A stretch of DNA of 64,000 bases from Candidatus Nitrosopelagicus sp. (GTDB lineage: Archaea; Thermoproteota; Nitrososphaeria; Nitrososphaerales; Nitrosopumilaceae): contig JAOMCQ010000002.1 of the NCBI GenBank assembly GCA_028345095.1, forward strand, positions 1 to 64,000. Reading direction: 5' to 3'. How positions within the stretch are numbered: the stretch's first letter is position 1; every line of letters starts with the position of its first letter. The position numbers and the translations under genes are program-made. A model generated the notes under the pieces. That model had not been told where the DNA came from and did not search any database. It worked only from the letters and a program-made list of their open reading frames with translations. Shown here one piece after another: positions 34,303 to 58,459 of this stretch.

Positions 34303-35007
34303 ATGAAATGTGTTATTTTAGCTGGCGGTTATGGAACCAGAATTTCTGAAGAGTCAAATTTAAAGCCAAAACCTATGATCGAGATAGGTAAAAAACCGAT
34401 TTTATGGCATATAATGAAAATTTACTCATATCATAAAATTGATGATTTCGTAATTTGTGGAGGATACAAAGGTGAGATGATCAAAGATTATTTTGAAAAA
34501 TCAGATTTTTCACCACTAAATATTGAAGTCATTGATACAGGATTAGATACTATGACCGGTGGTAGACTAAAAAGAATTCAAGACAAAATTGATGATACTT
34601 TTTGTTTAACTTATGGAGATGGAGTTAGTAATATCAACATATCAAATTTAATATCATTTCATAAAGAAAAAAAATCCATAGGGACATTAACAGCAATTCA
34701 TCCACCAGAAAGATATGGTGTTTTGAATCTATCAGAAGATAACGTAATAGAATTTCATGAGAAACATAGAGGAGAATCCTCTTGGATTAATGGTGGATTT
34801 TTTGTGTTTGAACCAACAATTTTTGATTATTTATCTGATGGAGATGCAACTATTTTAGAAAGAACACCGCTAGAAAATTTAGCAAAAGATAAAAAATTAA
34901 CTGCGTTTAAACATAATGGATTTTGGCAATCTATGGATACATTGAGAGAGAAAGAGTTGTTAGAAAAGTTATGGGATTCAAAAAAAGCACCTTGGAAAAT
35001 TTGGTAA
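34303..35007 (+). CDS. rfbF: Glucose-1-phosphate cytidylyltransferase
   Basis: Makes CDP-glucose from CTP and glucose 1-phosphate. 234 residues, a little shorter than the usual 255. LAGGYGTRISEESNLKPKPM at 6-25 is the nucleotide-binding signature, WHIMKIYSYHKIDDFVICGGYKG near 35-57 and YGDGVSN near 107 are diagnostic of RfbF, and GFWQSMDTLREKELLE lies near the end. First of a tight same-strand series (gap 13 bases) leading through CDP-glucose 4,6-dehydratase and the RfbH-type dehydratase. Confidence 0.93.
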   Translation: MKCVILAGGYGTRISEESNLKPKPMIEIGKKPILWHIMKIYSYHKIDDFVICGGYKGEMIKDYFEKSDFSPLNIEVIDTGLDTMTGGRLKRIQDKIDDTFCLTYGDGVSNINISNLISFHKEKKSIGTLTAIHPPERYGVLNLSEDNVIEFHEKHRGESSWINGGFFVFEPTIFDYLSDGDATILERTPLENLAKDKKLTAFKHNGFWQSMDTLREKELLEKLWDSKKAPWKIW

Positions 35008-35020
35008 ATGTGAATGAAAA

Positions 35021-36118
35021 ATGTTTAATGAAATTTATAAAGATAAAACTGTTCTTGTGACTGGACATACAGGATTTCAAGGAGGATGGTTATCATTATG
35101 GTTAAGAAAATTAGGTGCTAATGTTATCGGGTATTCACTAGAACCACCAACAGAATTATCATTTTTCGAAAGTGTTGAATTAAAAAACGATATTGAACAT
35201 GTAATTGGAGATATACGCGATCAAGAGAAATTGAAACAAATTATAACTAAATACAAACCTGAAATTATTTTTCATTTAGCAGCACAATCGTTAGTTAGGA
35301 AATCCTATAAAGAACCTACTGAGACATTTGAAACGAATATTTTAGGTACAGTAAATATTTTGGAAATTATTAGAAAAGCAGAATATGTTAAAACCGGGAT
35401 GATCATGACTAGTGATAAATGTTATGACAACAAGGATAACAAAAAACCACATATTGAAATTGATCCTATGGGAGGTTTTGATCCATATAGCGCGAGCAAA
35501 GGAGCAACAGAATTAGTTACATCATCTTATAGAAATTCATTTTTTAAAAATGAAAAATTAATTAGAGGAATTGCTACAGCGCGTGCCGGAAATGTGATTG
35601 GTGGAGGAGATTGGTCTGAAGATAGAATTATTCCAGATTCCATAAAGAGATTATCAGATAATGACGACATATTGATAAGAAATCCTGAATCAAAAAGACC
35701 TTGGCAATATGTATTAGAATCAATATCCGGAATACTTTGGTTAACAGCAAAATTATATCAAGAACCAACTAAATTCGATCAAGGATGGAACTTTGGACCA
35801 GAATCATATGAAAACACTTTGACAGTTAAAGAATTAGTTACAAAAATTATTCGAGAATGGGATTCAAAAAATACTTACAAAATTGATAAAAAGGACACCA
35901 AATTGCATGAATCAGATATACTACTTTTAGATTCATCTAAAGCCAAAAATGAATTAGGATGGAAAAATGTTTTAAAAATTGACGAAGTAATTTCAGAAAC
36001 TATTTCCTGGTACAAAGCTCATAAAAATGGAAGAGAGAATATGAAAGAATTTTCACTAAAACAAATTGAAAAATATAGTATCAAAGCAGCAGAAGATAAT
36101 TTAATCTGGACAAATTAG
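35021..36118 (+). CDS. rfbG: CDP-glucose 4,6-dehydratase
   Basis: Converts CDP-glucose to CDP-4-keto-6-deoxyglucose. 365 residues of the extended short-chain dehydrogenase family: GHTGFQGGWLSLWLRKLG at 15-32 is the NAD-binding loop specific to this enzyme, HLAAQSLVRKSYKEP near 86-100, MTSDKCYDNK near 128-137 (active-site region) and YSASKGATEL near 157 with the Tyr/Lys pair; the RPWQYVLESISGI motif lies near 225. Preceded by rfbF and followed eight bases later by the rfbH homologue. Confidence 0.94.
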   Translation: MFNEIYKDKTVLVTGHTGFQGGWLSLWLRKLGANVIGYSLEPPTELSFFESVELKNDIEHVIGDIRDQEKLKQIITKYKPEIIFHLAAQSLVRKSYKEPTETFETNILGTVNILEIIRKAEYVKTGMIMTSDKCYDNKDNKKPHIEIDPMGGFDPYSASKGATELVTSSYRNSFFKNEKLIRGIATARAGNVIGGGDWSEDRIIPDSIKRLSDNDDILIRNPESKRPWQYVLESISGILWLTAKLYQEPTKFDQGWNFGPESYENTLTVKELVTKIIREWDSKNTYKIDKKDTKLHESDILLLDSSKAKNELGWKNVLKIDEVISETISWYKAHKNGRENMKEFSLKQIEKYSIKAAEDNLIWTN

Positions 36119-36126
36119 AGTATAAA

Positions 36127-37332
36127 ATGACAGAAAATTCTGAAATTGAGAGAGTTCCTTATGGATTAGCAGTTCACGATCATGAAGAAGAAGAAGCAGT
36201 TTTGGAAGTAATAAAAAACCATAAAACGATAATGGGAGAAAAAGTTAAAAAATTTGAAGAAAATATTGCATCTTTATTTGGAAAACAATTTGGAACTATG
36301 GTTAATTCAGGTTCTTCTGCAAATTTATTAGCATTTGAAATTTTAGATGTCCCAAAAGATTCAGAAGTAATAACACCAATACTTACATTTGCAACAACAC
36401 TTTCACCAATTATTAAAAAAGGATTAATTCCTGTTTTTGTTGATGTAGAACCTAATACCTACATTGTGAATGTAGATGAAATAGAACAAGCGATTACAAA
36501 CAAAACTTGTGCATTAATGATACCATCATTACTAGGTAATATTCCGGATTTAGTTCGATTAAGAAAGATTGCAGATGATAATGATCTTATTTTCATTGAG
36601 GATTCTGCGGATACACTAGGAGCTACATTTAATCAAATTCCTACAGGAAAATTTTCAGATATATCAACTACTAGTTTCTATGGATCGCATATTATTACTG
36701 CAGCTGGAGAAGGAGGAATGATATGTAGCAATAATGAAAAATGGAATGAAAAATGTAAGATCCTACGAGGATGGGGAAGAACATCTGCAATCAATGAATC
36801 AGAAAAATTAGAAGATCGATTTAGTACAAAATTAGATGATATTCCATATGATTCAAAATTTATCTTTGAAGAAATGGGATATAATTTTCTACCAAGTGAA
36901 ATTAGTGCAGCATTTGGATTAGTACAATTAAAAAAATTAAAAATATTTGCGGAAATTCGTAAGAAAAATTTTAATGAATTAAACTCATTTTTTAGTTCTA
37001 TTGATTTTTTTGAAACTCCAAAACAATTATCAAATGTAGAAACTTCGTGGTTAGCATTTCCTTTAACTATTACATCAAATGCACCATTTACAAGATTAGA
37101 AATTGTTAAACATTTGGAATCATATGGAATTCAAACTAGACCTGTATTTTCAGGAAATATTTTAAGACAACCAGGTTTTAAAAATATTAAATATAAAGAT
37201 CTGGGAAAAGAATACAAAGTTGCAAATAATATAATGAAAAATTCATTTCTAATTGGCTGCAATCATGGACTTGATGAACGACATATGAATAGAATAAAGA
37301 TGGCATTTACATCTTTTTTAGAGAATAAATAG
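36127..37332 (+). CDS. rfbH: CDP-4-keto-6-deoxyglucose 3-dehydratase (RfbH/E1 type)
   Basis: A DegT/StrS-fold PLP enzyme of 401 residues in which the usual Schiff-base Lys is replaced by His188 (SFYGSHIITAAGEGG). That change marks the E1/RfbH (DdhC) dehydratases, which use PMP and remove the C3 hydroxyl of CDP-4-keto-6-deoxyglucose; transaminases of this fold keep Lys. SGSSANLLAF near 61-70 binds the cofactor phosphate. Known systems need an iron-sulfur flavoprotein reductase (E3, DdhD/AscD) as partner; I find none in the window. E1 enzymes carry a 2Fe-2S cluster; the Cys ligands cannot be assigned by eye. Confidence 0.88.
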   Translation: MTENSEIERVPYGLAVHDHEEEEAVLEVIKNHKTIMGEKVKKFEENIASLFGKQFGTMVNSGSSANLLAFEILDVPKDSEVITPILTFATTLSPIIKKGLIPVFVDVEPNTYIVNVDEIEQAITNKTCALMIPSLLGNIPDLVRLRKIADDNDLIFIEDSADTLGATFNQIPTGKFSDISTTSFYGSHIITAAGEGGMICSNNEKWNEKCKILRGWGRTSAINESEKLEDRFSTKLDDIPYDSKFIFEEMGYNFLPSEISAAFGLVQLKKLKIFAEIRKKNFNELNSFFSSIDFFETPKQLSNVETSWLAFPLTITSNAPFTRLEIVKHLESYGIQTRPVFSGNILRQPGFKNIKYKDLGKEYKVANNIMKNSFLIGCNHGLDERHMNRIKMAFTSFLENK

Positions 37333-37380
37333 AATCAATGTATAAAACATCTTTAATAATTTTACATTACAAGTAGTAAT

Positions 37381-38556
37381 ATGAAAAAACTATCAAGAAT
37401 TGCTTCACGTATTGATGGACAGCCCATGTTTAAACTGCTGGAAAAAGCACAAAAACTTGAGAAAGAAGGGAAAAAAATTATACATTTTGAGATAGGTGAT
37501 CCAGATTTTGCCACTCCAAAAAATATTTCAGATGCTGCAATTAATGCAATTAAAAATGAAAATACACATTATGTAAGTTCGTTTGGTTTAACAGAATTTC
37601 GAGAAAAAATATGTGAAGCCACACAAAAATCTAGAGGATTTAAACCAGATCTGGATCAAGTACTTATTACTCCTGGAGCAAATATTGCAATATTTTATGC
37701 TATTAGTTGTATAGTTAACCCGGGAGAGGAAATAATTGTTCCAGATCCTGGGTTTCCAACTTATTATTCAACAATCAAGATGTGTGATGCAGTACCTATA
37801 CGAGTACCTCTACTTGAGTCTAATAATTTTAGAATGAATCCTAAAGATATAGAAAATTCCATTACAGAAAAAACAAGAATGATTATAATTAATTCTCCAC
37901 AAAATCCAACTGGTTCTGTAATGACAGAAGAAGAAATTAAAATGACGTATGAGATTGCAAAAAAACATGAAATTTTTCTTTACAGTGATGAAATTTATGC
38001 CAGAATGATCTATAAAAATTCAGTTTTTAATTCACCGTCTATTTTTGATAAATGCCAAGAGTATACAATTATTTCAAATGGATTTAGTAAAGCATTTGCC
38101 ATGACAGGATGGAGATTAGGCGCAGTAATTGGACCATCATATATTATTGAAAAAATGAGATTATTACTTGAAACAACATCTTCATGTGTTCCACCATTTA
38201 TACAAAAAGCTGGAATAGAAGCTATTGAAGGAGAACAAACATTACAAAAAAAGATGTATGAAGAATATGAAATTAGAAGAGATCTTATTGTGAATGGAAT
38301 TAATTCAATTTCAGGATTAAGTTGTGTTGTTCCAGGAGGAGCATTCTATGTTTTTGTAAATATTAAAAAAACTGGAATGACAAGTGAAGAATTTTGTGAT
38401 TATATGCTTGAGGATTCAGGTGTTGCCATGCTACCAGGTACTAGTTTTGGTCAATTTGGAGAAGGATTTGTTAGAATTTGTTATGCAGTAGGACAAAGTG
38501 ACATTAATGATGCAATGCAAAGGATCAAAATATCAATAAACAAGTTAAATTTTTAA
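37381..38556 (+). CDS. Class I/II aminotransferase (aspartate aminotransferase-like)
   Basis: 391 residues, fold-type I PLP enzyme. GDPDFATPK near 40-48, SPQNPTGS near 178-185, and NGFSKAFAMTGWRLG near 238-252 with the PLP Lys; the C-terminal Arg (FVRICYA) binds the substrate carboxylate. It lies between rfbH and the TPP enzyme in the same direction, 48 and 5 bases away. It could supply pyruvate from alanine to the TPP enzyme, or act on a product of it; it is not of the DegT type that aminates sugars. Confidence 0.85.
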   Translation: MKKLSRIASRIDGQPMFKLLEKAQKLEKEGKKIIHFEIGDPDFATPKNISDAAINAIKNENTHYVSSFGLTEFREKICEATQKSRGFKPDLDQVLITPGANIAIFYAISCIVNPGEEIIVPDPGFPTYYSTIKMCDAVPIRVPLLESNNFRMNPKDIENSITEKTRMIIINSPQNPTGSVMTEEEIKMTYEIAKKHEIFLYSDEIYARMIYKNSVFNSPSIFDKCQEYTIISNGFSKAFAMTGWRLGAVIGPSYIIEKMRLLLETTSSCVPPFIQKAGIEAIEGEQTLQKKMYEEYEIRRDLIVNGINSISGLSCVVPGGAFYVFVNIKKTGMTSEEFCDYMLEDSGVAMLPGTSFGQFGEGFVRICYAVGQSDINDAMQRIKISINKLNF

Positions 38557-38561
38557 CAATT

Positions 38562-40355
38562 ATGCGCGTAGCTGATTTTGTAGCAAAATTCATTTTAGAA
38601 GAACTAAATGTTAATCACGTATTTACGTTAACTGGAGCGGGAATAATGCACTTGACTGATGGATTAGCCTGTAATAAAAAATTAAAAACAATTTGTCCAC
38701 ATCATGAACAAACATCATCTATGGCTCTAGAGGCATATTCACGTGCTACTGAAAATATTGGAGTTGGAATATTTACAACAGGTCCAGGAAGTACAAATGC
38801 AATTACAGGATTAGCAGGAGCATGGCAAGATTCCGTTCCATGTCTGTTTATTTCTGGACAAGTAAAGAAATCAGAATCTTCATCACTTTCAGGTGTAAAA
38901 AATTTACGTCAATTTGGAGTTCAAGAATTAGACATAATTCCAATTGTAAAATCAATAACAAAATATGCTGTAACTGTAACTGAACCTGAAAAAATTAGAT
39001 TTGAATTAGAAAAAGCAACACATATTGCAAAATCAGGAAGACCAGGACCAGTATGGATTGAGATTCCAATGGATATTCAAAGTGCACAGATTGACGAAAA
39101 CTTAGTTGGTTTTGATCTAAAAAATAATGAAATTCCAAGTACAGATAATGAAAAAATAAAAAAGGTTTTAGAAATAATGAAAAATTCAAAACGTCCTGTG
39201 ATTATATCAGGACAAGGAGTAAGAATTTCCAAGAGTATGAAACAATTGTTAGAATTTGTAAAATTATTAAACATTCCAGTTGTTACACCATATTTAGGAA
39301 TTGATACAATTAATCATAAGGAAAAATTCTTTATTGGTAAGGTAGGAGTGAAGGGAGAACGTGCAGCAAATCTTGCAATGCAAAATTCAGATCTAATAAT
39401 TTCAATAGGTTCCAGTTTACACGTTTCAGTTATTGGTTATAACTATAAACAATTTGCAAGAGCTGCAAAAAAAATTGTTGTTGATATAGATGAGATTTCT
39501 CACAAAAAAAGGACGATTGATATAGATTTATTCATAAAAAGTGATGCAAAAGATTTCTTAGATAAATTATTAGAGACATGTAGAAATAATATTCCAAATA
39601 ATTATCAAGAATGGTTAGAAAAATGTAATGAATGGAAGAAAAAATATCGTACTTGTCTTCCAGAATACAAAGATGCAAAAGAAAAAATAAATTCTTATTA
39701 TTTTATTAATAGAGTGTGTGAAAATTCAAAATCTGGTGACATATTTGTGGCAGATGCAGGAGGAACATTTTATGCAGTATCTCAAGGAATAGAATTGACT
39801 AAACCAAATCAACGATATATTCCATCTAGTGCAATGGCAACAATGGGATACAGCTTACCAGCAGCAATTGGAATTTCAATTGCAACAAATGAGAGAGTTA
39901 TTGCATTCACAGGAGATGGTTCATTACAACAAAATATTCAGGAATTTCAAACCCTAGTAGAATATAATCTTCCTGTAAAATTATTTGTTTTTAATAATGA
40001 TGGTTATCACTCCATTAGAACATCACAAACAAATTATTTTGAAAAAAGGTACGTAGGTGAAAGTTCAAAATCTGGAATTTCGTTCCCGGATACCATTAAA
40101 GTTGCGGAAGCATATGGTCTCAAAGCATTCAGAGTAAGTCAATCTAGCGACATAGACAATGTTGTAAAACAAGTTTTAGAATATGATGGTCCAGCCATAT
40201 GTGATGTAATTACTATCAGAGAACAAGAAATAATACCTACAGTTGCATCTAAAGTTAACGAAGATGGAAGTATGTCATCAAGACCATTAGAAGATATGTA
40301 TCCATTTTTAGATAGAAGTGAATATAAAAATAATCTTTACGTAGACGAAGTTTGA
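38562..40355 (+). CDS. Acetolactate-synthase-like TPP enzyme (YerE-like candidate)
   Basis: 597 residues with the three domains of the acetolactate synthase family. TLTGAGIMHLTDGLA near 23-37, the activating Glu in CPHHEQTSSMALEAYSR near 45-61, the central Rossmann domain, and the TPP motif GDGSLQQNIQEFQT...FNNDGYHS near 450-490. In bacterial CDP-3,6-dideoxyhexose clusters a related enzyme, YerE, transfers a two-carbon unit from pyruvate to the sugar C4 ketone, giving the branched sugar yersiniose. Its place after rfbFGH, five bases downstream of the aminotransferase gene, makes the same role likely. True valine/isoleucine biosynthesis is the alternative but would be out of place. Confidence 0.82.
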   Translation: MRVADFVAKFILEELNVNHVFTLTGAGIMHLTDGLACNKKLKTICPHHEQTSSMALEAYSRATENIGVGIFTTGPGSTNAITGLAGAWQDSVPCLFISGQVKKSESSSLSGVKNLRQFGVQELDIIPIVKSITKYAVTVTEPEKIRFELEKATHIAKSGRPGPVWIEIPMDIQSAQIDENLVGFDLKNNEIPSTDNEKIKKVLEIMKNSKRPVIISGQGVRISKSMKQLLEFVKLLNIPVVTPYLGIDTINHKEKFFIGKVGVKGERAANLAMQNSDLIISIGSSLHVSVIGYNYKQFARAAKKIVVDIDEISHKKRTIDIDLFIKSDAKDFLDKLLETCRNNIPNNYQEWLEKCNEWKKKYRTCLPEYKDAKEKINSYYFINRVCENSKSGDIFVADAGGTFYAVSQGIELTKPNQRYIPSSAMATMGYSLPAAIGISIATNERVIAFTGDGSLQQNIQEFQTLVEYNLPVKLFVFNNDGYHSIRTSQTNYFEKRYVGESSKSGISFPDTIKVAEAYGLKAFRVSQSSDIDNVVKQVLEYDGPAICDVITIREQEIIPTVASKVNEDGSMSSRPLEDMYPFLDRSEYKNNLYVDEV

Positions 40356-40359
40356 TTTA

Positions 40360-41271
40360 ATGACAGAAAAAAAGAATAAGGTTGGAATTTTAGGTGGAAC
40401 CGGTCACATAGGTAAAAATTTAATTTATTATTTTTCAAAAAATAATAAATATGAATTAAATTTATTTTCACGAGATGTGACAAGTACTAAAAATATTACA
40501 AATGAATTTAAGAATATCAATGTAGACAATTATGATAAATTAAATTCGTATGAATTAGATACTGTGATCAATTGTGTTGGAATTAGTAACCCAACAAAAA
40601 TTTTAGATGATAAAATAGATTTTAAAAAAATAACAGACAAGTATGATGAACAAGTTTTATTGTATTTAAAAAAATTTTCAGATTCATTATATATCAATAT
40701 AAGTAGCGGAGCAGTATATGGAGAAAATTTTACAAATAATGTAAACGAAAAATCAACGATAACAACAATGCAGGAGATTAATCCGTATGCAGAATCTAAA
40801 ATTTCTATCGAAAAAAAACATAGAAAATTAAGCGATAATAATATAATTGATTTAAGAGTTTTTAATTTTTTTAGTAGATACATAAATCTGAATACAAATT
40901 TTTTATTATGTCAGTTAGTAAATGCCATAAAAAATAAAACCATATTCATCACAGACAGTAATGATATTACCAGAGATTTTATTCATCCTAGTGATCTTTT
41001 TAATTTAATTGAAAAATGTATTAAAAAAAATACAATAAATGATGTATTTGATGTTTACAGTAAAAAACCAATTTCAAAGTTTGAGATTATAGATCTATTT
41101 GAAAAAAAATATGATTTAGGATTTAAAATTACAAATAATATCATAGAAATATCACCTACAGGTGTAAAACAAAATTATTTTTCTTCATCACAAAAAGCAG
41201 GAAAAATTGGATATGAGCCAGAATTCACATCTTTTGAAACAATTCAGGATGAAATAAAATTTCTTTTATAA
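40360..41271 (+). CDS. NAD(P)-dependent sugar epimerase/reductase (SDR)
   Basis: 303 residues. GGTGHIGKNLIYYF at 12-25 binds NAD(P); NISSGAVYGE near 110-119 and NPYAESKISIE near 145 provide the Ser and Tyr-Lys active site. DFIHPSDLFNLIE near 205 is the common late motif. It follows the TPP enzyme by four bases. In the yersiniose pathway the last step, reduction of the acetyl side chain (YerF), is done by a protein of this family, which this gene would fit. Sequence is divergent enough that other nucleotide-sugar reactions remain possible. Confidence 0.78.
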   Translation: MTEKKNKVGILGGTGHIGKNLIYYFSKNNKYELNLFSRDVTSTKNITNEFKNINVDNYDKLNSYELDTVINCVGISNPTKILDDKIDFKKITDKYDEQVLLYLKKFSDSLYINISSGAVYGENFTNNVNEKSTITTMQEINPYAESKISIEKKHRKLSDNNIIDLRVFNFFSRYINLNTNFLLCQLVNAIKNKTIFITDSNDITRDFIHPSDLFNLIEKCIKKNTINDVFDVYSKKPISKFEIIDLFEKKYDLGFKITNNIIEISPTGVKQNYFSSSQKAGKIGYEPEFTSFETIQDEIKFLL

Positions 41272-43961: not shown

Positions 43962-44795
43962 TCATAATGAATTTGTTTCCATATAATTCTCAAAAGATGT
44001 AAAATCAAAATTTTCCAATAATTCATTCATTCGTGAATATGCTTTTTTGATATTATGAAAAGTCACAAAATTCGGTTTAAATGGAAGTGCGATGTCAGGC
44101 ATAAATTCAGGAGTTAACTCCCATGAATGAATGAAAAATGTTGCTGGAATGTTATTTTTTTCATAATTTTTTATTGTATTTTTTGTGATTTTCATAGGCA
44201 AAGAACGAAGATAAAATCCACCCGCAGCAGGGATTTTTTTTCCAAAGAATTTCTTTATGGCTAGCGGAAATTCAATTATTTTGCCATTAATGTCATTTTT
44301 GTCTAGAGAATTTTGACTGATTCTATATGGACCTTCTTGTGCAGTAGGCATTCCGTAAAGATCTGATTTTGCAGGAACAATACTACTATCATAAACATAA
44401 TGATGTTTTTCTAATTTATCAATAAGCCAAGAACTATTTTGATTAAGAGAAAAAGTTGGAGCACGGAAACCTTTTGATTTTCCATCGGATAAGTTATCAA
44501 ATTCATCTAACTCATCATCAAATTTTTCAGAAAAATTTGATGAATCTAATCGGTCATGATGCATAGTATGAAAAGCAATTTCATGACCATTATCAATTAT
44601 CTTATCAAGTAATTCAGGGTTGTCATAAAGAAGTTCACCAACTAAAAAAAATGTTGCTGATGTTTCATTTTTATTTAATAATTCTAAAATTTTATCCATA
44701 CCTTGAAACATTGTTGGTTTTTTCTCTGTTGTAATGTATGGTTGAACTAATTGTGGATGATACCAATCTTCAAAATCAATTCCTAAAATATTCAT
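43962..44795 (-). CDS. Polysaccharide deacetylase (NodB-type)
   Basis: 277 residues of the carbohydrate esterase 4 fold. GIDFEDWYHP at 5-14 carries the catalytic Asp, FHTMHHDRLD near 72-81 the zinc-binding His pair, FRAPTFS near 104-110 and IVPAKSDLYG follow, and FFIHSWELTPEF near 215 is the late His motif. The DFEDWYH start marks the group found with exosortase and other polysaccharide systems. Removes N-acetyl groups from an amino sugar. No signal peptide is visible. It lies nine bases after an acetyltransferase-type gene, suggesting deacetylation and re-acylation of the same sugar. Confidence 0.87.
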   Translation of the reverse strand: MNILGIDFEDWYHPQLVQPYITTEKKPTMFQGMDKILELLNKNETSATFFLVGELLYDNPELLDKIIDNGHEIAFHTMHHDRLDSSNFSEKFDDELDEFDNLSDGKSKGFRAPTFSLNQNSSWLIDKLEKHHYVYDSSIVPAKSDLYGMPTAQEGPYRISQNSLDKNDINGKIIEFPLAIKKFFGKKIPAAGGFYLRSLPMKITKNTIKNYEKNNIPATFFIHSWELTPEFMPDIALPFKPNFVTFHNIKKAYSRMNELLENFDFTSFENYMETNSL

Positions 44796-44804
44796 TATAA
44801 TCTA

Positions 44805-45338
44805 TTAATGATTTATTTTTTTTACAACTCTTGCAGGGTTGCCTATTGCAATACAATAATCTGGAATATCTTGTGTGACAACACTTCTTGGAGATATTAT
44901 AGAATTTTCTCCAACAGTTACACCAGCAATAATTATTGCACCAGGATTAATTACTGCGCCAGATTTTATTTTAACTTTTGAAATTTTTCTAGGAAATTCA
45001 CCTTGTTTTAAAAAAAGATTTGCAGATGGATTACTATGTGCAAATATCATTGAATTTGAACCAAGAGTGACATTATTACCAATTTCTACCATTTGTGGAT
45101 AGATAAGATCAATTAAGACATATGGGTTAAAATGACAGTTTTTTCCAATTTTAACACCACGTGCTTTTTGCATCTGAATTGAAAAATTTGAACTTGGGGA
45201 AGAATATGATAGAGAATGAAGAATCCAACTTCGTAAAAATTTTAATTTCATCTTAAGACGGCCAAAACTTCCAGAATAGCCATAGTATTCCATTACTTCT
45301 TTCTCATTTATTGGGAAAGCATCATTTTCATCACTCAT
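44805..45338 (-). CDS. Hexapeptide-repeat acyltransferase
   Basis: 177 residues. The C-terminal half is a left-handed beta-helix of imperfect hexapeptides (VEIGNNVTLG, VKIKSGAVINPGAIIIAGVTVGEN), and IFAHSNPSA near 113 contains the likely catalytic His. Ends in NPARVVKKI, typical of the WcaF/Maa group. Transfers an acyl group, normally from acetyl-CoA, to a sugar hydroxyl or amine. It is divergent from the FkbH-ACP cassette and precedes a polysaccharide deacetylase, so an acyl-ACP donor made next door is possible (inference). Confidence 0.85.
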   Translation of the reverse strand: MSDENDAFPINEKEVMEYYGYSGSFGRLKMKLKFLRSWILHSLSYSSPSSNFSIQMQKARGVKIGKNCHFNPYVLIDLIYPQMVEIGNNVTLGSNSMIFAHSNPSANLFLKQGEFPRKISKVKIKSGAVINPGAIIIAGVTVGENSIISPRSVVTQDIPDYCIAIGNPARVVKKINH

Positions 45339-45504: not shown

Positions 45505-47250
45505 ATGGAAAAAAAACTATCAGAATACCTATCATTAGCTAAAAATATCAATATTTCAAAAAATGAGAAAAAGATTAAGGTTGGAATTCTTGGGAGTTTC
45601 ACGTTAAATGGATTAGATGAATGTCTTAAGGTAAAATGTTCAGAGCAAAATATTGATTACGAATCATACATAGGAAACTATAATCAATATAATCAAGAAA
45701 TTCTTAATTCAGAAAGTGGATTATACAAATTTGAACCAGATATTACATTTTTAATAATTGATAATAGAACAATTCTTGGAGATTTATTTCATAATCCATA
45801 TTCAGTATCAGATAAAAAACGTAGAGAAATAGTTGATGAAAAATTTGGAGAAATAAAAAATCTGATAGAGATTTTCCAAGAGAAATTAAATAAAAAATTA
45901 GTAATATGTAATTTTCATATTCCTTATTTTTCTTCAATTGGAATAATTGAAAATAAATCTGATTTTGGATTTCACGAGATGATAAACGAATTAAATAAAA
46001 AATTAGTTAATTTTGTAAAAGTAAAAAATTCTATATTTATTTTCGATTATAATCAATTCGTGGTAAAACATGGTGAAAAAAATGTTTTTAATTATAAACA
46101 ATTTTTTCTTGGAGACATAAAAATTGCATTTGATTATATTCCATTTTTTGCTAATGATTTAATTGGATATATCAAACCAATTTTAGGTCTTAACAAAAAA
46201 TGTATTGTGTTAGATCTTGATAACACATTATGGGGTGGAATTGTAGGTGAAGATGGATTTGATGGGATAGAACTTGGACATTCATCAAATGGAAAAGCAT
46301 TTGTAGAATTTCAAAAACAACTTTTATCATTATGGCAACAAGGAATTATTCTTGCAATTAATAGTAAAAATAATTTAGATGATGCAATTAAAGTAATTAA
46401 AGAACATCCAGATATGATATTAAGAGAAAAACATTTTGCCAGTATCAAAATTAATTGGAATGATAAAGCTCAAAATTTAGTTGATATTTCAGAAGAAATT
46501 AATATTGGATTCAATAGTATGGTTTTTTTTGATGATGATAAATTAAATCAAGAAAGAATAAGAAATGAATTTCCAGAAGTGTTGACTATTGATTTGCCAA
46601 AGGATCCATCTCAATATACAGAAATACTAACAGATCTTAATGATTTCAATGTATTACAGAATACAGAAGAGGATTCAAAGAGAGGAGAAATGTATGCACA
46701 GCAAAGACAACGTAATCAATTCAAAGAGACAGTTTCAAATTTGGAACAGTTTTTAAATCAATTAGAAATTAAAGTAAAGATTAAAAAATCAAATGAGTTT
46801 ACAATTCCTCGAATCTCTCAACTTACCTTAAAAACTAATCAATTCAATTTAACGACAAGGAGATATCAAGAAGAAGATATCAAGAAATTTGTCAATGATG
46901 GTAATTATTTAGTTGGATGTGCTCAAGTAACAGACAAGTTTGGGGATAACGGTATTACAGGGGCATTTATTGTAAAGAAAGAAAATAACATATGGACATT
47001 GGACACATTTCTTTTGAGCTGTAGGGTCATGGGTCGAGGTGTTGAAGATGCAATTTTATCACATATTATTGATGATGCAAAAAGGAACAATGTAAAAGAA
47101 GTAAAGGCAGAGTTCATACACACTGCAAAAAATAAACCAGCAGAAAATTTTTTGAAAGATTTTGGATTCATTAAACAAGAAAATTATTGGAACTATAAAT
47201 TAAATAATGATGTAGAATATCCAAATCACTTGGAGATGGAAGTAGAATAA
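45505..47250 (+). CDS. FkbH-like HAD phosphatase/acyl transferase with GNAT domain
   Basis: 581 residues: an N-terminal region (1-225) with an SGNH-like start (KVGILGSFTLNG), the HAD-IIIC domain with LDLDNTLWGG at 236-245 (catalytic Asp237 and Asp239), and a C-terminal GNAT-like part (ISQLTLKTNQFNLTTRRY, then VMGRGVEDA). FkbH-type enzymes take 1,3-bisphosphoglycerate, remove phosphate and load the glyceryl group onto an ACP; relatives in surface-glycan loci make hydroxyacyl-ACP. An ACP gene begins in its stop codon (TAATG). ATG at 45505. Confidence 0.88.
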   Translation: MEKKLSEYLSLAKNINISKNEKKIKVGILGSFTLNGLDECLKVKCSEQNIDYESYIGNYNQYNQEILNSESGLYKFEPDITFLIIDNRTILGDLFHNPYSVSDKKRREIVDEKFGEIKNLIEIFQEKLNKKLVICNFHIPYFSSIGIIENKSDFGFHEMINELNKKLVNFVKVKNSIFIFDYNQFVVKHGEKNVFNYKQFFLGDIKIAFDYIPFFANDLIGYIKPILGLNKKCIVLDLDNTLWGGIVGEDGFDGIELGHSSNGKAFVEFQKQLLSLWQQGIILAINSKNNLDDAIKVIKEHPDMILREKHFASIKINWNDKAQNLVDISEEINIGFNSMVFFDDDKLNQERIRNEFPEVLTIDLPKDPSQYTEILTDLNDFNVLQNTEEDSKRGEMYAQQRQRNQFKETVSNLEQFLNQLEIKVKIKKSNEFTIPRISQLTLKTNQFNLTTRRYQEEDIKKFVNDGNYLVGCAQVTDKFGDNGITGAFIVKKENNIWTLDTFLLSCRVMGRGVEDAILSHIIDDAKRNNVKEVKAEFIHTAKNKPAENFLKDFGFIKQENYWNYKLNNDVEYPNHLEMEVE

Positions 47251-47489
47251 TGTCAAAAGAGGTTTATGGCATAGTTGCTAAAGTATTCTCAATTTCGGAA
47301 TCAGATGTCAATGACTCTTCCAGTCCAGAGAATATTGAATCATGGGATTCATTTAATGGCCTAATACTTGTTGATGAACTTGAATCTCATTATAATATCA
47401 AATTTACAATTTCAGAAATTACAAATGTTAAGAATGTTGCAGACATAAAAAAACATCTAAAAAATCATAATGTTGAATTAAATGAATGA
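47250..47489 (+). CDS. Acyl carrier protein
   Basis: 79 residues. ESWDSFNGLILVDELE at 30-45 holds Ser34, the phosphopantetheine attachment site; the usual DSL is DSF here. The acidic helices II and III and overall length match ACPs and stand-alone carrier proteins. Archaea generally make no fatty acids with ACP, so the carrier must serve a special pathway. It overlaps the FkbH gene by one base and the MaoC gene by eight, so the four genes form one unit. The AcpS at its end would modify Ser34. Confidence 0.92.
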   Translation: MSKEVYGIVAKVFSISESDVNDSSSPENIESWDSFNGLILVDELESHYNIKFTISEITNVKNVADIKKHLKNHNVELNE

Positions 47490-47913
47490 TGAATTATTAG
47501 AATATACCTTTGACAAAATAGAAATAGGATTAAAAAAGGATTTTCAAATAAAAATTACTGAATCTTTAGTTAATGATTTTGCAAAAATATCTGGTGATTT
47601 TAGCCCAATTCATATGAATGAGAATTATGCAAAAGGAACAATTTTCAAAAAAAGAATTGTTCATGGAATGTTACTATCATCTCTATTATCCAGAATTCAG
47701 GGGATGTATTTACCAGGAAAACATGCATTATATTTTTCCCAATCATTGAATTTTCGAAATCCATGTTTCATTGATGATATAATTACAGTTTCAGGTACGG
47801 TAATTGCTAAAAGTGAATCCACAAAAATTTTAAAAATTGAATCAATAATAAAAAATCAAAATAATGAAATTATTGTATCAGGAATAGGTCGTGTAATTGT
47901 AAGAGATGATTGA
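47482..47913 (+). CDS. MaoC-like (R)-specific enoyl-thioester hydratase
   Basis: 143 residues, hot-dog fold. The catalytic Asp39/His44 pair sits in SGDFSPIHMNENYA, and RIVHGMLLSSLLS near 58-70 is the overhanging helix motif of the PhaJ/MaoC family. These enzymes hydrate a trans-2-enoyl-CoA (or -ACP) to the (R)-3-hydroxy compound or run in reverse. ATG at 47482, overlapping the ACP gene by eight bases. With ACP it could form or dehydrate a 3-hydroxyacyl group destined for a sugar. Confidence 0.88.
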   Translation: MNDELLEYTFDKIEIGLKKDFQIKITESLVNDFAKISGDFSPIHMNENYAKGTIFKKRIVHGMLLSSLLSRIQGMYLPGKHALYFSQSLNFRNPCFIDDIITVSGTVIAKSESTKILKIESIIKNQNNEIIVSGIGRVIVRDD

Positions 47914-48259
47914 AATATTTGGAATTGGAATAGATATAGTAAATATTCAAAAATTTAAGAAAAAACCTTTTAAAAAAAATCAAAATTTCTACAAACGAAT
48001 TTTTTCTGAATCAGAAATTGAATATTGTTTAAAATTTAAAAATCCATATGAAAGATTTGCGGGTAAATTTGCAATTAAAGAGGCAGTGACAAAGTCTATC
48101 CAAACTAAGATTGGTTTTTCACAAATTGAAATTTCATATAATAAATCAAAACCAGTCATAAAACTAAAAAAAGTATCAAAAAAATATGAATTTATTATTT
48201 CAATTTCACATGAGAGTGACTTTGCAATTGCGGTCGTAATCTCAGAAAATATTAACTAA
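47906..48259 (+). CDS. acpS: Holo-ACP synthase (4'-phosphopantetheinyl transferase, AcpS type)
   Basis: 117 residues, the AcpS size. GIGIDIVNIQKF at 6-17 has Asp10, and FAGKFAIKEAVTKS at 51-64 has Glu59, the two magnesium-binding residues of the family. It transfers phosphopantetheine from CoA to the ACP serine. The ATG lies eight bases before the end of the MaoC gene. Presence of both carrier and activating enzyme in one operon shows that the carrier protein is meant to be used. It converges with the opposite GT2 gene, overlapping by eight bases. Confidence 0.92.
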   Translation: MIEIFGIGIDIVNIQKFKKKPFKKNQNFYKRIFSESEIEYCLKFKNPYERFAGKFAIKEAVTKSIQTKIGFSQIEISYNKSKPVIKLKKVSKKYEFIISISHESDFAIAVVISENIN

Positions 48260-49292
48260 TTTTTTGTTTAACTCTTTTACTCAGCCTAGTTAATATAGAA
48301 TTGAATGTAGTATTCATTGAGTTTTGTGATACATTAGTTGGTACAAAAATTTGATCAGGAAATTCTTGGATAAGTTTATCATCTGAAATTATTTTGAGAT
48401 TTTCTAATTCAGTATATTTTTTTTCAATTAGTTCCTTATTATTTCGAATATCTAATTCTGCTTTAATCTTTGCACCAAGAAATCCTTTTGAAATGTAAAA
48501 TGCCCAAACAAACAAATCTACTAAAATCAATGAAAGATTCATTTTTTTATATGTGCTTTTAGAAAAATGAGTGAGAAGACAGTATTTTCGATTTCGCTCT
48601 AACCAATAAAATTTCTTTGATGACCATTTTAATGAATAACTTTCAACATGAAATATTTTTGATTTTGGTACATAGTATGAATTTATTCCAAGTTGTGCTG
48701 CACGCCAACCCAAATCTAGATCATCGTGATATAAAAATAGAAAATCATCTAACAGCCCAACTTTTTGAAAAACAGTTTTTGAAGTGAAAAGACACGTTCC
48801 AGATGCATAACCAATTTTTTCAATATGCTCTTCTTTTGAAATATTCTTTTTTCCTTTATCCCTAGCAAATCCAAATCCAAAGACGTGGATCATATTACCA
48901 GTACTCTGTATAATATCAGTCTCATTTAATGAAAGAATTTTTGGTTGATATAATCCATCTCCGAATTCATTATGTGCAGAAATTAATTCATTAATCCAAT
49001 TAGGTTCAACAATTGTATCTGGATTTAATATAACAAGAAAATCACCTTTTGCTTCTCTAATACCTATGTTATTTCCTTCACAGTATCCAAAATTTTTTTT
49101 ATTTTGAATTAATTTAATATCAGGATATTTTTCTTTACATATTTCCTGACTTTTATCCGTTGAAATATTATCAACCACAATTATTTCTAGATTTTGATAT
49201 ATTGATTTTTTAATAGAATTAATACAATTAAGCAGTAATTCTCCAGCATTGTAATTTAGAACAATAATACTGATTAATGGTTGTTCATTCAT
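48252..49292 (-). CDS. GT2 glycosyltransferase (rhamnosyltransferase-like)
   Basis: 346 residues. SIIVLNYNAGELLLNC at 8-23, VDNISTDKS near 41-49, NPDTIVEPNWINE near 94-106 (DxD-like), and LFLYHDDLDLGWRAAQLG near 187-204 with the ED/DD acidic pair. This fits the GT2 group of rhamnosyl- and other surface-glycan transferases. A possible amphipathic or membrane segment lies near 250-270. The dTDP-hexose genes next door on the same strand may supply its donor. Confidence 0.85.
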   Translation of the reverse strand: MNEQPLISIIVLNYNAGELLLNCINSIKKSIYQNLEIIVVDNISTDKSQEICKEKYPDIKLIQNKKNFGYCEGNNIGIREAKGDFLVILNPDTIVEPNWINELISAHNEFGDGLYQPKILSLNETDIIQSTGNMIHVFGFGFARDKGKKNISKEEHIEKIGYASGTCLFTSKTVFQKVGLLDDFLFLYHDDLDLGWRAAQLGINSYYVPKSKIFHVESYSLKWSSKKFYWLERNRKYCLLTHFSKSTYKKMNLSLILVDLFVWAFYISKGFLGAKIKAELDIRNNKELIEKKYTELENLKIISDDKLIQEFPDQIFVPTNVSQNSMNTTFNSILTRLSKRVKQKIS

Positions 49293-49344: not shown

Positions 49345-50388
49345 TTATAACGATATTTTTGATCCTTCCCCAAGTAGGAAAATTTTTTCATCTCCTGAGG
49401 AATTGTCTGTAATTTCTGAATTATTTGCAATAATACTATTTTTAATTTCTGCAGTAGAATTGATTTTACAATTTTCCATTATAATTGAATTTTCTATGCT
49501 GGATGCAAAGATAGTTGTATTATTACCAACACTAACATTTGGACCAATTGAAGAACCTGAAGAGATGTGACAATTCTCTCCAATTGTAACTAGACCATTA
49601 ATTTTTACATTTGATTCAATTATAGTACCTTCTCCAACTATATGATCTTCTATTCCTTTTTCAAGACGTTTTAATATTTTTTTAATGATTTCTCCATTAG
49701 CATGTAAAATATCATCTGGAGTTCCAGTATCCTTCCAATAATCAGTTATAGTTTCATAACTAATATTATTATTTTGTTTCAATAAATTATCTAATGCATC
49801 TGTTATTTCAAATTCATTACGCCAAGATGGCTTCAAATTATCTATGATTTCAAAGATTAATGGCGTTAGCAAGTAAATTCCAGTAACTGCAAGATTTGAT
49901 GAAGGATTTTTTGGTTTTTCTGTAATTTTTAAGATTTTTTTATTTTCAATATCTGCTATTCCAAATCTACTTGGATTATCTACTTCACAGAGCAAAACTG
50001 TAGCATCATAATCTGAATTTTTGAAATTTTCAACAAAATCTGTTATAGGTTTTTGTATAATATTATCTCCAAGAAAAACAAGGAATTTTTCATTATTTAC
50101 AAATTTCTTGCATAAACTAATTGCATGAGCAATACCTCGAGGTTCATCTTGTTCAATGTATGTTATATTTACACCAAATTTTTTTCCATTCCCATAATAC
50201 TCTTTAACTTTGTTTGAACCCACACCACCAATTATGATTGCAATTTCATCAATGCCTGCTTCTTTAATTGAATCTAAACAATATTCAGACATTGGTTTAT
50301 TTGCAATAGGTAAAAGTTGTTTTGGTCCAGTATGAGTAAGTGGTCTTAATCGAGTTCCGTGACCTCCATGAAGAATTATTCCTTTCAT
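49345..50388 (-). CDS. rmlA: Glucose-1-phosphate thymidylyltransferase, long form
   Basis: 347 residues: a nucleotidyltransferase domain (LHGGHGTRLRPLTHTGPKQL at 6-25, FLGDNIIQKP near 104) and a C-terminal left-handed helix of hexapeptides (VGEGTIIESNVKINGLVTIG near 250). The long archaeal/bacterial RmlA-type enzyme couples dTTP with glucose 1-phosphate; sugar-1-phosphate specificity is not certain. Located 23 bases after rmlB on the same strand, which supports a dTDP-hexose role. Confidence 0.88.
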   Translation of the reverse strand: MKGIILHGGHGTRLRPLTHTGPKQLLPIANKPMSEYCLDSIKEAGIDEIAIIIGGVGSNKVKEYYGNGKKFGVNITYIEQDEPRGIAHAISLCKKFVNNEKFLVFLGDNIIQKPITDFVENFKNSDYDATVLLCEVDNPSRFGIADIENKKILKITEKPKNPSSNLAVTGIYLLTPLIFEIIDNLKPSWRNEFEITDALDNLLKQNNNISYETITDYWKDTGTPDDILHANGEIIKKILKRLEKGIEDHIVGEGTIIESNVKINGLVTIGENCHISSGSSIGPNVSVGNNTTIFASSIENSIIMENCKINSTAEIKNSIIANNSEITDNSSGDEKIFLLGEGSKISL

Positions 50389-50411: not shown

Positions 50412-51407
50412 TTAATTAGAACTTTTCCAAGGAGTTGTGTCTTGTACAGTTTCTAAGTGAATTTTATTTAGAATTTCAGGATTATTGAGATACCAATTAA
50501 TTGTATTTTTCAATCCATCATCAAAACTGGTTTTTATTTTCCATCCTAAATCATTAGATATTTTTTGAGAATCCATACTATATCTGAGATCATGCCCAGG
50601 TCTATCCTCTACAAATTTGATTAGATTTTGGGGTTTATTCATTAATTTAAGAATTTTATTTACAATTGTTAGATTATCGACTTCGTTGTTTGCAGAAATA
50701 TTATAGGATTCACCAGATTTGCCGTTGAGTAATGCCATTAGAACAGCATCACAATGATCATCAACATGAATCCAATCTCTAATGTTAACACCTTTTCCAT
50801 AAATTGGAATCTCATTAGATTGATTTGCTAAAATAATTACTTTTGGTATTAATTTTTCAGGAAATTGTCGTGGACCATAATTATTAGTACATCTAGTAAT
50901 TATCACATCAGAATTATGTGTACTAACATAAGATTTTATCAAAAGTTCAGCAGCAGCCTTAGTTGCAGCATATGGATTGGATGGATTAAGTTGAGATTTT
51001 TCAGTAGCAGTACCAGTTGATAAGCTACCAAATACCTCATCAGTAGAAATTTGTATCATTCGTTTTTTTTGTTTTGTTATAATATCAAGAATAGTAAATG
51101 AACCTCGAATATTAGATACTAGAAAAGGATCTGCATTATCTATACTACGATCTACAAAAGATTCTGCTGCAAAGTTTACAACTGCATCACATTTTGAAAT
51201 TAATTCTTCCATTAATCGTCTATTTGTTATATTGCCTTTTACAAATTCATATTTTTCATTATTTTGAATTTCTGATAGATTGTTTTTATCTGCTCCATGT
51301 AATTCTGCATCTACATTAATTATCTCAAAATTGCTTGATTCCTTTAATAATTTCAATATGAAATTGCTACCAATAAAGCCTAAACCTCCAGTGACTAATA
51401 ATTTCAT
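50412..51407 (-). CDS. rmlB: dTDP-glucose 4,6-dehydratase
   Basis: 331 residues. TGGLGFIGSNFILKLL at 5-20 (NAD), NFAAESFVDRSIDNA near 78-92, QISTDEVFGSL near 118-128 and NPYAATKAAAELL near 143-155 (Tyr/Lys) are the diagnostic motifs. Produces dTDP-4-keto-6-deoxyglucose. No RmlD-type reductase or classical RmlC epimerase follows; instead a cupin (51525-51977) is divergent to it. Starts at ATG 51407 and shares a 117-base intergenic region with the cupin gene. Confidence 0.93.
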   Translation of the reverse strand: MKLLVTGGLGFIGSNFILKLLKESSNFEIINVDAELHGADKNNLSEIQNNEKYEFVKGNITNRRLMEELISKCDAVVNFAAESFVDRSIDNADPFLVSNIRGSFTILDIITKQKKRMIQISTDEVFGSLSTGTATEKSQLNPSNPYAATKAAAELLIKSYVSTHNSDVIITRCTNNYGPRQFPEKLIPKVIILANQSNEIPIYGKGVNIRDWIHVDDHCDAVLMALLNGKSGESYNISANNEVDNLTIVNKILKLMNKPQNLIKFVEDRPGHDLRYSMDSQKISNDLGWKIKTSFDDGLKNTINWYLNNPEILNKIHLETVQDTTPWKSSN

Positions 51408-51524: not shown

Positions 51525-51977
51525 ATGGATAATGAAAAATTTATCATCAGATTAGAAAAACATGATACTAAAGCAGTATCAAATGAAAAAATTAATGGTT
51601 CTCTAACAGTAATTTGGAGAGATTGGGACCAGATCTTAGAAAAAAATCCAGAAATGGTTTACGTGAGTAATGTGAATACAGGTGAGATCAAAGGTCCACA
51701 TATCCATACTAAACGAAATAGCTATTTCACATGTATACATGGAGAAGTATTATTCATCATTAAAGATGAAAATGGAAATTATATAGAAATCATTTCAAAT
51801 GAAAAAGAACCAATACTTGTGCATGTACCAAAAAATGTACCATCAGCACACATCAATCTTTCAAAAAATACATCAAGTGTTTTAGCATTAGCAGATGTTG
51901 CATGGAGACCAGACGACAATGAAATGAAAAATATAGAATTTTTAGATTACGATTGGAAAAAATGGAAAAAAGTTTGA
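51525..51977 (+). CDS. Cupin nucleotide-sugar isomerase-like protein (FdtA/WxcM-type)
   Basis: 150 residues. A single cupin: GPHIHTKRNSYFTCIHGEVLFII near 55-77 and VHVPKNVPSAHINLS near 104-118 match the dTDP-sugar 3,4-ketoisomerase and RmlC-like group. FdtA-type enzymes rearrange dTDP-4-keto-6-deoxyglucose to the 3-keto isomer, which suits a partner of RmlB. RmlC-type 3,5-epimerase is the alternative; its Tyr/His pair is not clear by eye. A TATA-like TTTTATT is about 28 bases before the ATG. Confidence 0.7.
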   Translation: MDNEKFIIRLEKHDTKAVSNEKINGSLTVIWRDWDQILEKNPEMVYVSNVNTGEIKGPHIHTKRNSYFTCIHGEVLFIIKDENGNYIEIISNEKEPILVHVPKNVPSAHINLSKNTSSVLALADVAWRPDDNEMKNIEFLDYDWKKWKKV

Positions 51978-57503: not shown

Positions 57504-58459
57504 AAACAGCAATAGTTACAGGTGTAGCAGGTTTCATTGGATCCTCGTTAGCTGAACGATTATTAAAAAATAAATTCAAAGTAGTAGGAATAGATAATTT
57601 TACAAAATACTACCCAAAAAAAATTAAATTAAATAACATTAAATCATTTAGAAAAAATGAAAATTTTTCTTTACTTACAAAGGATATTTTGAATTCAGAT
57701 TTAAGAGGAGTTTTTAACAAAGCAGATTTTCTTTTTCATTTAGCTGCACAACCAGGGGTACGTGCAAGTTGGGGAAAAGATTTTGTAAATTACTCAAAAA
57801 ATAACATTCATGCTACACAAAAATTATTAGAGTATGCCAAAAATACAAAAAGCCTAAAAAAAATTATTTTGGCATCTTCTTCATCAGTATATGGTATTCA
57901 AGATGGAAAGATGAATGAATCTAAAACTAATACAGAACCAGTTTCACCATATGGGGTTAGTAAACTTGCAGTAGAACATTTGGCAAAAGCATATGTAAAA
58001 AATTTTAATTTACCAATAGTTATGTTACGATATTTTACTGTTTATGGTCCCAGACAAAGACCAGATATGGCATTTATGAAGTTCATAATGAAATCACTAC
58101 GTAAAAAACCAATAACAGTCTATGGTAATGGTAATCAAAAAAGGAGTTTTACATATATTGATGATATTATTGATGCAACAATTTCTTCCATAAATGTTTC
58201 GAAGAATGGAGAGATCATAAATGTCGGTGGAGGTAAAATAAATTCAATTAAAAAAAATATAGAGATTCTGAGTAATCTGTTAGAATATGAAATAAAAATT
58301 ATACATGAAGATTTTCCTAATGGAGATGTCAATCGTACAGAAGCAGATACTACAAAAGCTAAAAAATTAATTGGATTTAAACCAAAAATTTCAATAAAAG
58401 ATGGATTAGAATTTCAATATGAATTCGTAAAGAAAAATAAGGGATTATATAATTTTTGA
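57500..58459 (+). CDS. UDP-glucuronate 4-epimerase-like NAD epimerase
   Basis: 319 residues. VTGVAGFIGSSLAERLL at 7-23, GIDNFTKYYPKKIK near 31-44, HLAAQPGVRASW near 80-91 and SSSSVYG near 124, with SPYGVSKLAVE near 146-156 (Tyr/Lys). The IDNF..YY and QPGVR motifs are those of UDP-glucuronate 4-epimerases. Located downstream of a UDP-sugar dehydrogenase, it would make UDP-galacturonate. ATG at 57500, overlapping the preceding stop. Its stop holds the start of the next gene (TTGA). Confidence 0.88.
   Translation: MKTAIVTGVAGFIGSSLAERLLKNKFKVVGIDNFTKYYPKKIKLNNIKSFRKNENFSLLTKDILNSDLRGVFNKADFLFHLAAQPGVRASWGKDFVNYSKNNIHATQKLLEYAKNTKSLKKIILASSSSVYGIQDGKMNESKTNTEPVSPYGVSKLAVEHLAKAYVKNFNLPIVMLRYFTVYGPRQRPDMAFMKFIMKSLRKKPITVYGNGNQKRSFTYIDDIIDATISSINVSKNGEIINVGGGKINSIKKNIEILSNLLEYEIKIIHEDFPNGDVNRTEADTTKAKKLIGFKPKISIKDGLEFQYEFVKKNKGLYNF

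Follow-up and report, generated by a model that had tools for sequence, protein, structure and literature searches.

An acyl carrier protein cassette in a glycan island of an ammonia-oxidising archaeon: a predicted module for acylation of surface sugars

The window studied here is a stretch of 64,000 nucleotides (positions 1 to 64,000 of contig JAOMCQ010000002.1) from a Nitrosopumilaceae-type archaeon, best placed in Candidatus Nitrosopelagicus. In a glycan island of this window, positions 45505-48259 hold a cassette encoding an FkbH-type loader, an acyl carrier protein (ACP), a MaoC protein and a holo-ACP synthase (AcpS). Most archaea, and their common ancestor as well, are reported to lack ACP machinery (PMC3533463). 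We propose that the cassette belongs to a module dedicated to attaching a three-carbon (C3) acyl group to a surface glycan, which is in our judgement its probable function. This reading is carried by the gene set, the intact active sites, co-inheritance with two divergent genes, exchange of both the loader and one cassette slot among relatives, absence of ketosynthase (KS) and malonyl transacylase (MCAT), and presence of phosphoglycerate kinase (PGK). The source is an 895 kb metagenome-assembled genome (MAG) of 65.7% completeness, with the window on its 97-kb contig; relatives were surveyed in 151 genomes of the family.

All four open reading frames (ORFs) are intact and read in the forward direction, and successive genes overlap by 1, 8 and 8 nt. 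FkbH (45505-47250) has three parts, namely FkbH_N, a HAD-IIIC phosphatase and a GNAT domain. It reaches 320.2 bits against TIGR01686 (E=1.4e-95; curated cut-off 146.65) and also exceeds the cut-off of PF21211 (FkbH_N). In the AlphaFold2 (AF2) model, with a pLDDT of 88, the N-terminal and HAD parts match 3slr (BF1531) best in the PDB, and the C-terminus matches GNAT acetyltransferases. The ACP (47250-47489) scores 22.0 bits against PF00550 (cut-off 20.8) and carries the phosphopantetheine serine, Ser34, within W-D-S-F. Its only PDB relative is 2lml, a nuclear magnetic resonance structure of a specialised Geobacter ACP. MaoC (47482-47913; PF01575, E=4.6e-18), a hot-dog (de)hydratase, occupies the third slot, which varies among relatives. 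AcpS (47906-48259) reaches 73.2 bits against TIGR00516 (cut-off 59.8). The cassette ACP is the sole PF00550 match over cut-off in the source genome, and the cassette AcpS the sole PF01648 match. An earlier note on this DNA had described four overlapping genes, and this description holds, with all ORFs in place on one strand and each over its family cut-off. The unit itself is larger, since it also takes in a divergent upstream acyltransferase and deacetylase, which that note did not name.

The active sites of the cassette proteins are well preserved. FkbH residues D237, D239, S287, K321, D343, D344 and C506 (SCR motif) are identical in 100% of 103 archaeal and bacterial sequences. In AcpS, the GiD and KE motifs with the Mg-binding Asp/Glu are conserved across the aligned homologues, in agreement with the activating enzyme of intact catalytic residues that had been claimed. 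The phosphopantetheine serine, whose loss in relatives had been named as evidence against an active carrier, is kept in 31/31 aligned ACPs, as W-x-S-F. FkbH is described as loading glyceryl from 1,3-bisphosphoglycerate onto ACP (PMC7489565, PMC8949500, PMC3679948). PGK, the source of 1,3-bisphosphoglycerate, is encoded in the source genome. That FkbH loads D-glyceryl from this donor onto the ACP here is a prediction that homology strongly supports.

The carrier appears not to serve fatty acid synthesis. No KS (PF02801) is detected in the source genome, as had been claimed, and the 151 family genomes give three marginal matches; MCAT (PF00698) is found in 0/31 genomes searched. The source MAG is only about 66% complete, so this argument leans on relatives whose genomes are more complete. 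With no KS in the source genome and no MCAT in the 31 genomes searched, a fatty-acid or polyketide role is rejected, and with Ser34 kept, the earlier proposal that a dedicated ACP pathway puts a small hydroxyacyl group on surface sugars remains the best reading. The methoxymalonyl-ACP set, two dehydrogenases and an O-methyltransferase, does not stand beside FkbH-ACP, where the neighbours are MaoC, AcpS, the hexapeptide acyltransferase and the deacetylase. One might suppose that the output of the cassette is a secreted small molecule or a lipid headgroup instead of a cell-surface glycan, as FkbH-ACP pairs are most familiar from the biosynthesis of polyketide and peptide antibiotics (PMC7489565, PMC8949500) and MBOAT O-acyltransferases adjoin some loci in ammonia-oxidising archaea (AOA) and many bacterial FkbH loci. 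However, the source genome has no KS, every flank encodes nucleotide-sugar synthesis or a glycosyltransferase, and the deacetylase is co-inherited, so that we regard such a product as very unlikely.

The functional unit includes two genes divergent from the cassette, a CE4-type polysaccharide deacetylase with DUF3473 (43962-44795, reverse strand; PF01522, PF11959) and a left-handed beta-helix hexapeptide acyltransferase similar to LacA/maltose O-acetyltransferase (44805-45338, reverse strand; PF00132). The usual order in relatives is deacetylase and hexapeptide gene on one strand, FkbH, ACP, slot gene and AcpS on the other, then GT2, RmlA and RmlB on the first strand and FdtA on the second. 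FkbH occurs in 28 of the 151 genomes, AcpS in 34, the hexapeptide acyltransferase in 31 and the DUF3473 deacetylase in 32. AcpS accompanies FkbH in 28/28 genomes, and the hexapeptide enzyme is found with AcpS in 30 and with the deacetylase in 30; all three coincide in about 30 genomes, closed ones among them. Fisher tests, which ignore phylogeny and shared ancestry, give p=6e-25 for FkbH with AcpS, 3e-26 for the hexapeptide enzyme with AcpS and 5e-22 for FkbH with the hexapeptide enzyme. G030 and G093 keep both the deacetylase and the hexapeptide gene although 15-18 kb separate the two, which argues that their link is more than adjacency. G078 has the pair without FkbH, because the pair sits at a contig end. 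A survey of the gene set had been suggested, and the cassette order recurs in dozens of relatives with invariant or nearly invariant active-site residues, which excludes chance.

The catalytic motifs of the deacetylase are conserved in 30 homologues, and its match to the NodB model is weak (45 bits, cut-off 240). The hexapeptide enzyme matches 3srt, 4dcl and 1kqa in the PDB. Its His101, which we take to be the LacA-type catalytic histidine, is present also in Asgard and f14 homologues (f14 being another family of the phylum). Judging from these families, the deacetylase would free a sugar amine and the hexapeptide enzyme would act as the acyl-ACP:sugar transferase. The bond formed may be N- or O-acyl; the deacetylase favours N. 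An MBOAT as transferase at the window locus is rejected, with 0 matches to PF03062 in the 66% complete source genome.

The third slot is exchangeable. MaoC keeps its sGD..P.H motif (catalytic Asp/His) in 17/17 aligned homologues. Among AOA relatives, most loci have MaoC in this slot, and three have MaoC together with a FabG-like short-chain dehydrogenase/reductase (SDR). Eight loci, and L035 as a broken copy, have a VOC protein similar to methylmalonyl-CoA epimerase, which scores 70 bits against TIGR03081 and so stays under the cut-off of 115. MaoC and VOC never occur together in these cassettes, and the FkbH tree requires at least three changes between them. In Okeania, SAR116 and Nitrospira loci, a single MaoC-SDR protein follows directly 3' of FkbH or FkbH-ACP. 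The label of hydratase given earlier is correct as to the MaoC hot-dog family with its Asp/His. As to function, the replacement by VOC in relatives and the coupling or fusion to SDR elsewhere suggest that MaoC is probably a dehydratase on glyceryl-ACP, and not a maker of 3-hydroxyacyls. In this locus it would probably convert glyceryl-ACP into pyruvyl-ACP; in loci with an SDR, reduction would lead on to lactyl.

The nearest solved relatives of MaoC, PhaJ 1iq6, to which it aligns with sGD..P.H conserved, and 5cpg, are (R)-specific enoyl-CoA hydratases. MaoC might then hydrate crotonyl-type thioesters. The ACP would bear (R)-3-hydroxybutyryl destined for an N-acyl sugar, while FkbH would supply a second acyl group or have another role. 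Carbon fixation in AOA passes through crotonyl-CoA, and 3-hydroxybutyryl amides occur in bacterial glycans. Against this, the FkbH-type cassettes have no CoA-to-ACP transacylase or ligase, the VOC epimerase-like protein takes the MaoC slot, and bacterial loci repeatedly couple MaoC and SDR to FkbH, including the three fusions. We therefore consider the hydroxybutyryl route improbable. It is likewise unlikely, in our view, that plain glyceryl is the final group. In that case MaoC would be a hot-dog protein with an accessory or proofreading duty, and the group transferred would be D-glyceryl, or L-glyceryl in strains that have VOC. In tetronate and nonribosomal peptide synthetase (NRPS) pathways, FkbH chemistry does end at glyceryl-ACP (PMC7489565, PMC8949500), and flagellin of C. 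jejuni NCTC 11168 carries a di-O-methylglyceric acid derivative of pseudaminic acid (PMC3958885). However, since the MaoC Asp/His pair is kept in all 17 homologues and MaoC is linked to SDR in bacteria, MaoC is likely catalytic rather than accessory.

The loader is exchanged as well. G084, G030, G092 and G093 have the hexapeptide enzyme and AcpS without FkbH, and an AMP-binding ligase of about 480 aa lies between the hexapeptide gene and the ACP (L104:8283-9710, L105:9530-10969, L106:9486-10922 and L107:9400-10848). The ligase is confirmed by Pfam in G084 and G030 (L104 and L105) and assigned by position and size in G092 and G093. Its presence in the place of FkbH indicates that the chassis accepts different loaders.

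Two FkbH loci (L034, L047) have a DltB-like MBOAT and a partner as neighbours, as does one ligase locus (L106). The insert lies between the hexapeptide gene and FkbH at L034:5882-8288 and L047:10282-12694; the partner has 313-316 aa and no Pfam match, and L047 has a second ACP gene. In G117 (L111:2028-4943), a second ACP-like gene stands with VOC, an AAC(3)-like acyltransferase (PF02522) and a DUF4910/DUF2172 M28-like protein, and AcpS follows at some distance within that locus. At L148, a Nealsonbacteria locus, FkbH-ACP is likewise accompanied by an AAC(3)-like enzyme, here together with a radical-SAM B12 protein. G128 (L109:5233-9700) has AcpS, ACP and an AMP-ligase beside a LuxE-type acyl-protein synthetase, which may be another archaeal ACP pathway and possibly unrelated.

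Outside the family, Thorarchaeota, Heimdallarchaeota, another Asgard MAG and f14 have AcpS-FkbH-ACP with the hexapeptide enzyme. In these Asgard and f14 loci, VOC is present in most, and the polysaccharide deacetylase is of a DUF2334-matching kind, not DUF3473 and non-orthologous. That the pairing recurs with a distinct deacetylase subfamily is the strongest reason to count deacetylation as a step of the pathway. At a Spirochaetia locus, FkbH-ACP stands with a DUF3473 deacetylase, and bacterial loci repeat FkbH-ACP-MaoC-SDR. We examined 67 FkbH loci outside AOA with models derived from single proteins or from AOA sequences, which makes the following counts lower bounds: ACP is near FkbH in 39, MaoC in 19, VOC in 13, the hexapeptide enzyme in 16 and MBOAT in 18. 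VOC with MaoC occurs in 0 loci (p=0.013), SDR is present in 12/19 MaoC loci (p=3e-5), and the hexapeptide enzyme and MBOAT never occur together (p=0.004). Of the distant ORFs of the same loci, 2/281 matched the models.

In the FkbH tree, AOA sequences group with Nitrososphaerales, DPANN, Asgard and f14 archaea and one bacterium of the candidate phyla radiation (CPR), with a moderate SH-aLRT of 84 and some long branches. Recent transfer from bacteria is not supported by this grouping. In the phylum sample, FkbH is found in 18/398 genomes, 15 in the Nitrosopumilaceae-type family and 3 in f14. Such a patchy distribution is what one would expect of surface-glycan islands. The MAG is about 66% complete, and the FkbH frames of relatives G129 and G081 are broken, which could point to a degenerate or contaminant cassette without function. 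The same order is nevertheless present in the single-contig, ~99% complete genomes G017, G019, G034 and G076 and in Ca. Nitrosotenuis chungbukensis MY2, the FkbH clade consists of archaea and the one CPR bacterium, and the active sites are invariant. The MY2 locus (L143) holds MaoC in its third slot. Contamination is rejected on the closed-genome synteny and the tree, and a functionless cassette is extremely unlikely.

On the basis of chemistry and comparative genomics, we propose how the C3-acylation module may work; its substrate, acyl product and acceptor are those we infer from sequence comparison. AcpS would turn apo-ACP into holo-ACP. The HAD domain of FkbH would dephosphorylate D-1,3-bisphosphoglycerate and D-glyceryl would pass onto the ACP thiol, with the GNAT domain and the invariant Cys506 carrying the transfer. 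Because glyceryl-S-ACP is a 3-hydroxyacyl thioester with an acidic C2-H, it should be open to MaoC, SDR or VOC chemistry, and the third-slot enzyme may alter it there. At the window locus, MaoC would eliminate the C3 hydroxyl to give enolpyruvyl/pyruvyl-ACP, which a neighbouring SDR, where present, may reduce to lactyl-ACP. In sister genomes, the VOC protein may instead epimerise D- to L-glyceryl. The deacetylase would strip N-acetyl from the glycan or its precursor, and the hexapeptide enzyme would move the ACP-borne acyl group to the freed amine or a nearby hydroxyl. This editing of glyceryl-ACP at C2/C3 is one idea that accounts for both the exclusive MaoC/VOC slot and the MaoC-SDR coupling. 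We know of no demonstrated stand-alone example of MaoC/SDR dehydration-reduction or VOC epimerisation of glyceryl-ACP; the bryostatin loading module may be a precedent for going from glyceryl to lactyl.

Several points weigh against this scheme. The hexapeptide enzyme resembles CoA-dependent O-acetyltransferases and could serve a separate O-acetylation step. No SDR adjoins MaoC in the window, so its product might be pyruvyl or something else, and the proximity of MaoC to PhaJ-type enoyl-CoA hydratases among solved structures allows a different acyl substrate. The AMP-ligase loci must carry another acyl group, so glyceryl cannot be the sole substrate of the transferase. The co-occurrence p-values, as said, take no account of phylogeny. 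As a broader scheme, we tentatively suggest modular acyl exchange on ACP, with a somewhat less than even chance of being right, in which a constant deacetylase and hexapeptide chassis is combined with swapped loaders (FkbH or AMP-ligase) and thioester editors (MaoC towards pyruvyl/lactyl, VOC towards L-glyceryl), diversifying the acyl group of surface sugars.

The module can be compared with known systems. In Nod-factor N-acylation (NodB-NodF-NodA), a CE4 deacetylase frees the sugar amine and an acyl group from a dedicated ACP goes on; the archaeal locus likewise has a CE4 deacetylase and an ACP. In contrast, it has a hexapeptide enzyme in the putative NodA role (no NodA search was made), an FkbH loader in place of NodE/fatty acid synthesis, and a predicted C3 hydroxy/oxo acyl in place of a fatty acyl. 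Dlt D-alanylation (DltA-DltC-DltB) also brings a carrier-borne small acyl group to a surface polymer, and some AOA relatives have an AMP-ligase and a DltB-like MBOAT, whereas the window has neither an AMP-ligase loader nor an MBOAT. The FkbH/ACP glyceryl-loading pairs of bafilomycin, tetromadurin and vioprolide share the FkbH family, a stand-alone adjoining ACP, the Asp pair and the 1,3-bisphosphoglycerate source. The archaeal cassette differs in having no polyketide synthase (PKS) or NRPS, no KS and no FabH, in having its own AcpS, and in its glycan context. While methoxymalonyl-ACP formation uses two dehydrogenases and an O-methyltransferase, the FkbH-ACP cassettes here use MaoC, SDR or VOC tailoring. 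The Campylobacter flagellin modification (PMC3958885) is also a glyceryl-type acid on a surface-protein sugar, although bacterial and methylated; this likeness concerns the predicted product.

FkbH-ACP loading is already known; what is new is the full unit, its swappable slot and loader, and the archaeal glycan setting. We found no description of this module in the literature on FkbH with O-antigen, MaoC or archaeal glycans. A complete fatty-acid-free ACP module in abundant ammonia oxidisers offers a concrete alternative role for archaeal ACP machinery. If the scheme is true, glycans should show shifts relative to N-acetyl of +46.005 (N-glyceryl), +30.011 (N-lactyl) or +27.995 Da (N-pyruvyl). 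The one AOA glycan structure considered, that of Nitrososphaera viennensis, shows no glyceryl-, lactyl- or pyruvyl-type group (PMC12153357), and AOA glycans have hardly been examined so far. The exchange of slot and loader provides a genetic handle on surface-sugar variation; a link to virus or grazer pressure is speculation.

Downstream of AcpS, the conserved neighbours are a GT2 glycosyltransferase (48252-49292, reverse strand; PF00535), RmlA-long, a glucose-1-phosphate thymidylyltransferase (49345-50388, reverse strand; TIGR01208, 386 bits, over cut-off), RmlB, a dTDP-glucose 4,6-dehydratase (50412-51407, reverse strand; TIGR01181, 414 bits, over cut-off) and an FdtA/WxcM-like dTDP-sugar ketoisomerase (51525-51977, forward strand; PF05523, 64 bits), all recognised by synteny as well.

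Elsewhere in the window, positions 34303-41271 hold a CDP-sugar operon with glucose-1-phosphate cytidylyltransferase (TIGR02623) and CDP-glucose 4,6-dehydratase (TIGR02622), both over cut-off. It also encodes an RfbH/DdhC-like aminotransferase-fold protein, a pyridoxal phosphate (PLP) aminotransferase, an acetolactate-synthase-like thiamine pyrophosphate (TPP) enzyme (38562) and an NAD-dependent epimerase-like protein (40360). This operon resembles a CDP-yersiniose-type pathway for a branched 3,6-dideoxy sugar, here in an archaeon. An NRDD-like protein at 25985-28063 combines an ATP-cone with an N-terminal winged-helix/HTH domain, an unusual fusion. At the right end of the island (58456-60834 and 60841-63944), we notice a GDSL-lipase-like protein fused to pentapeptide repeats, together with a second GDSL-like protein and a NodU/CmcH-type carbamoyltransferase.

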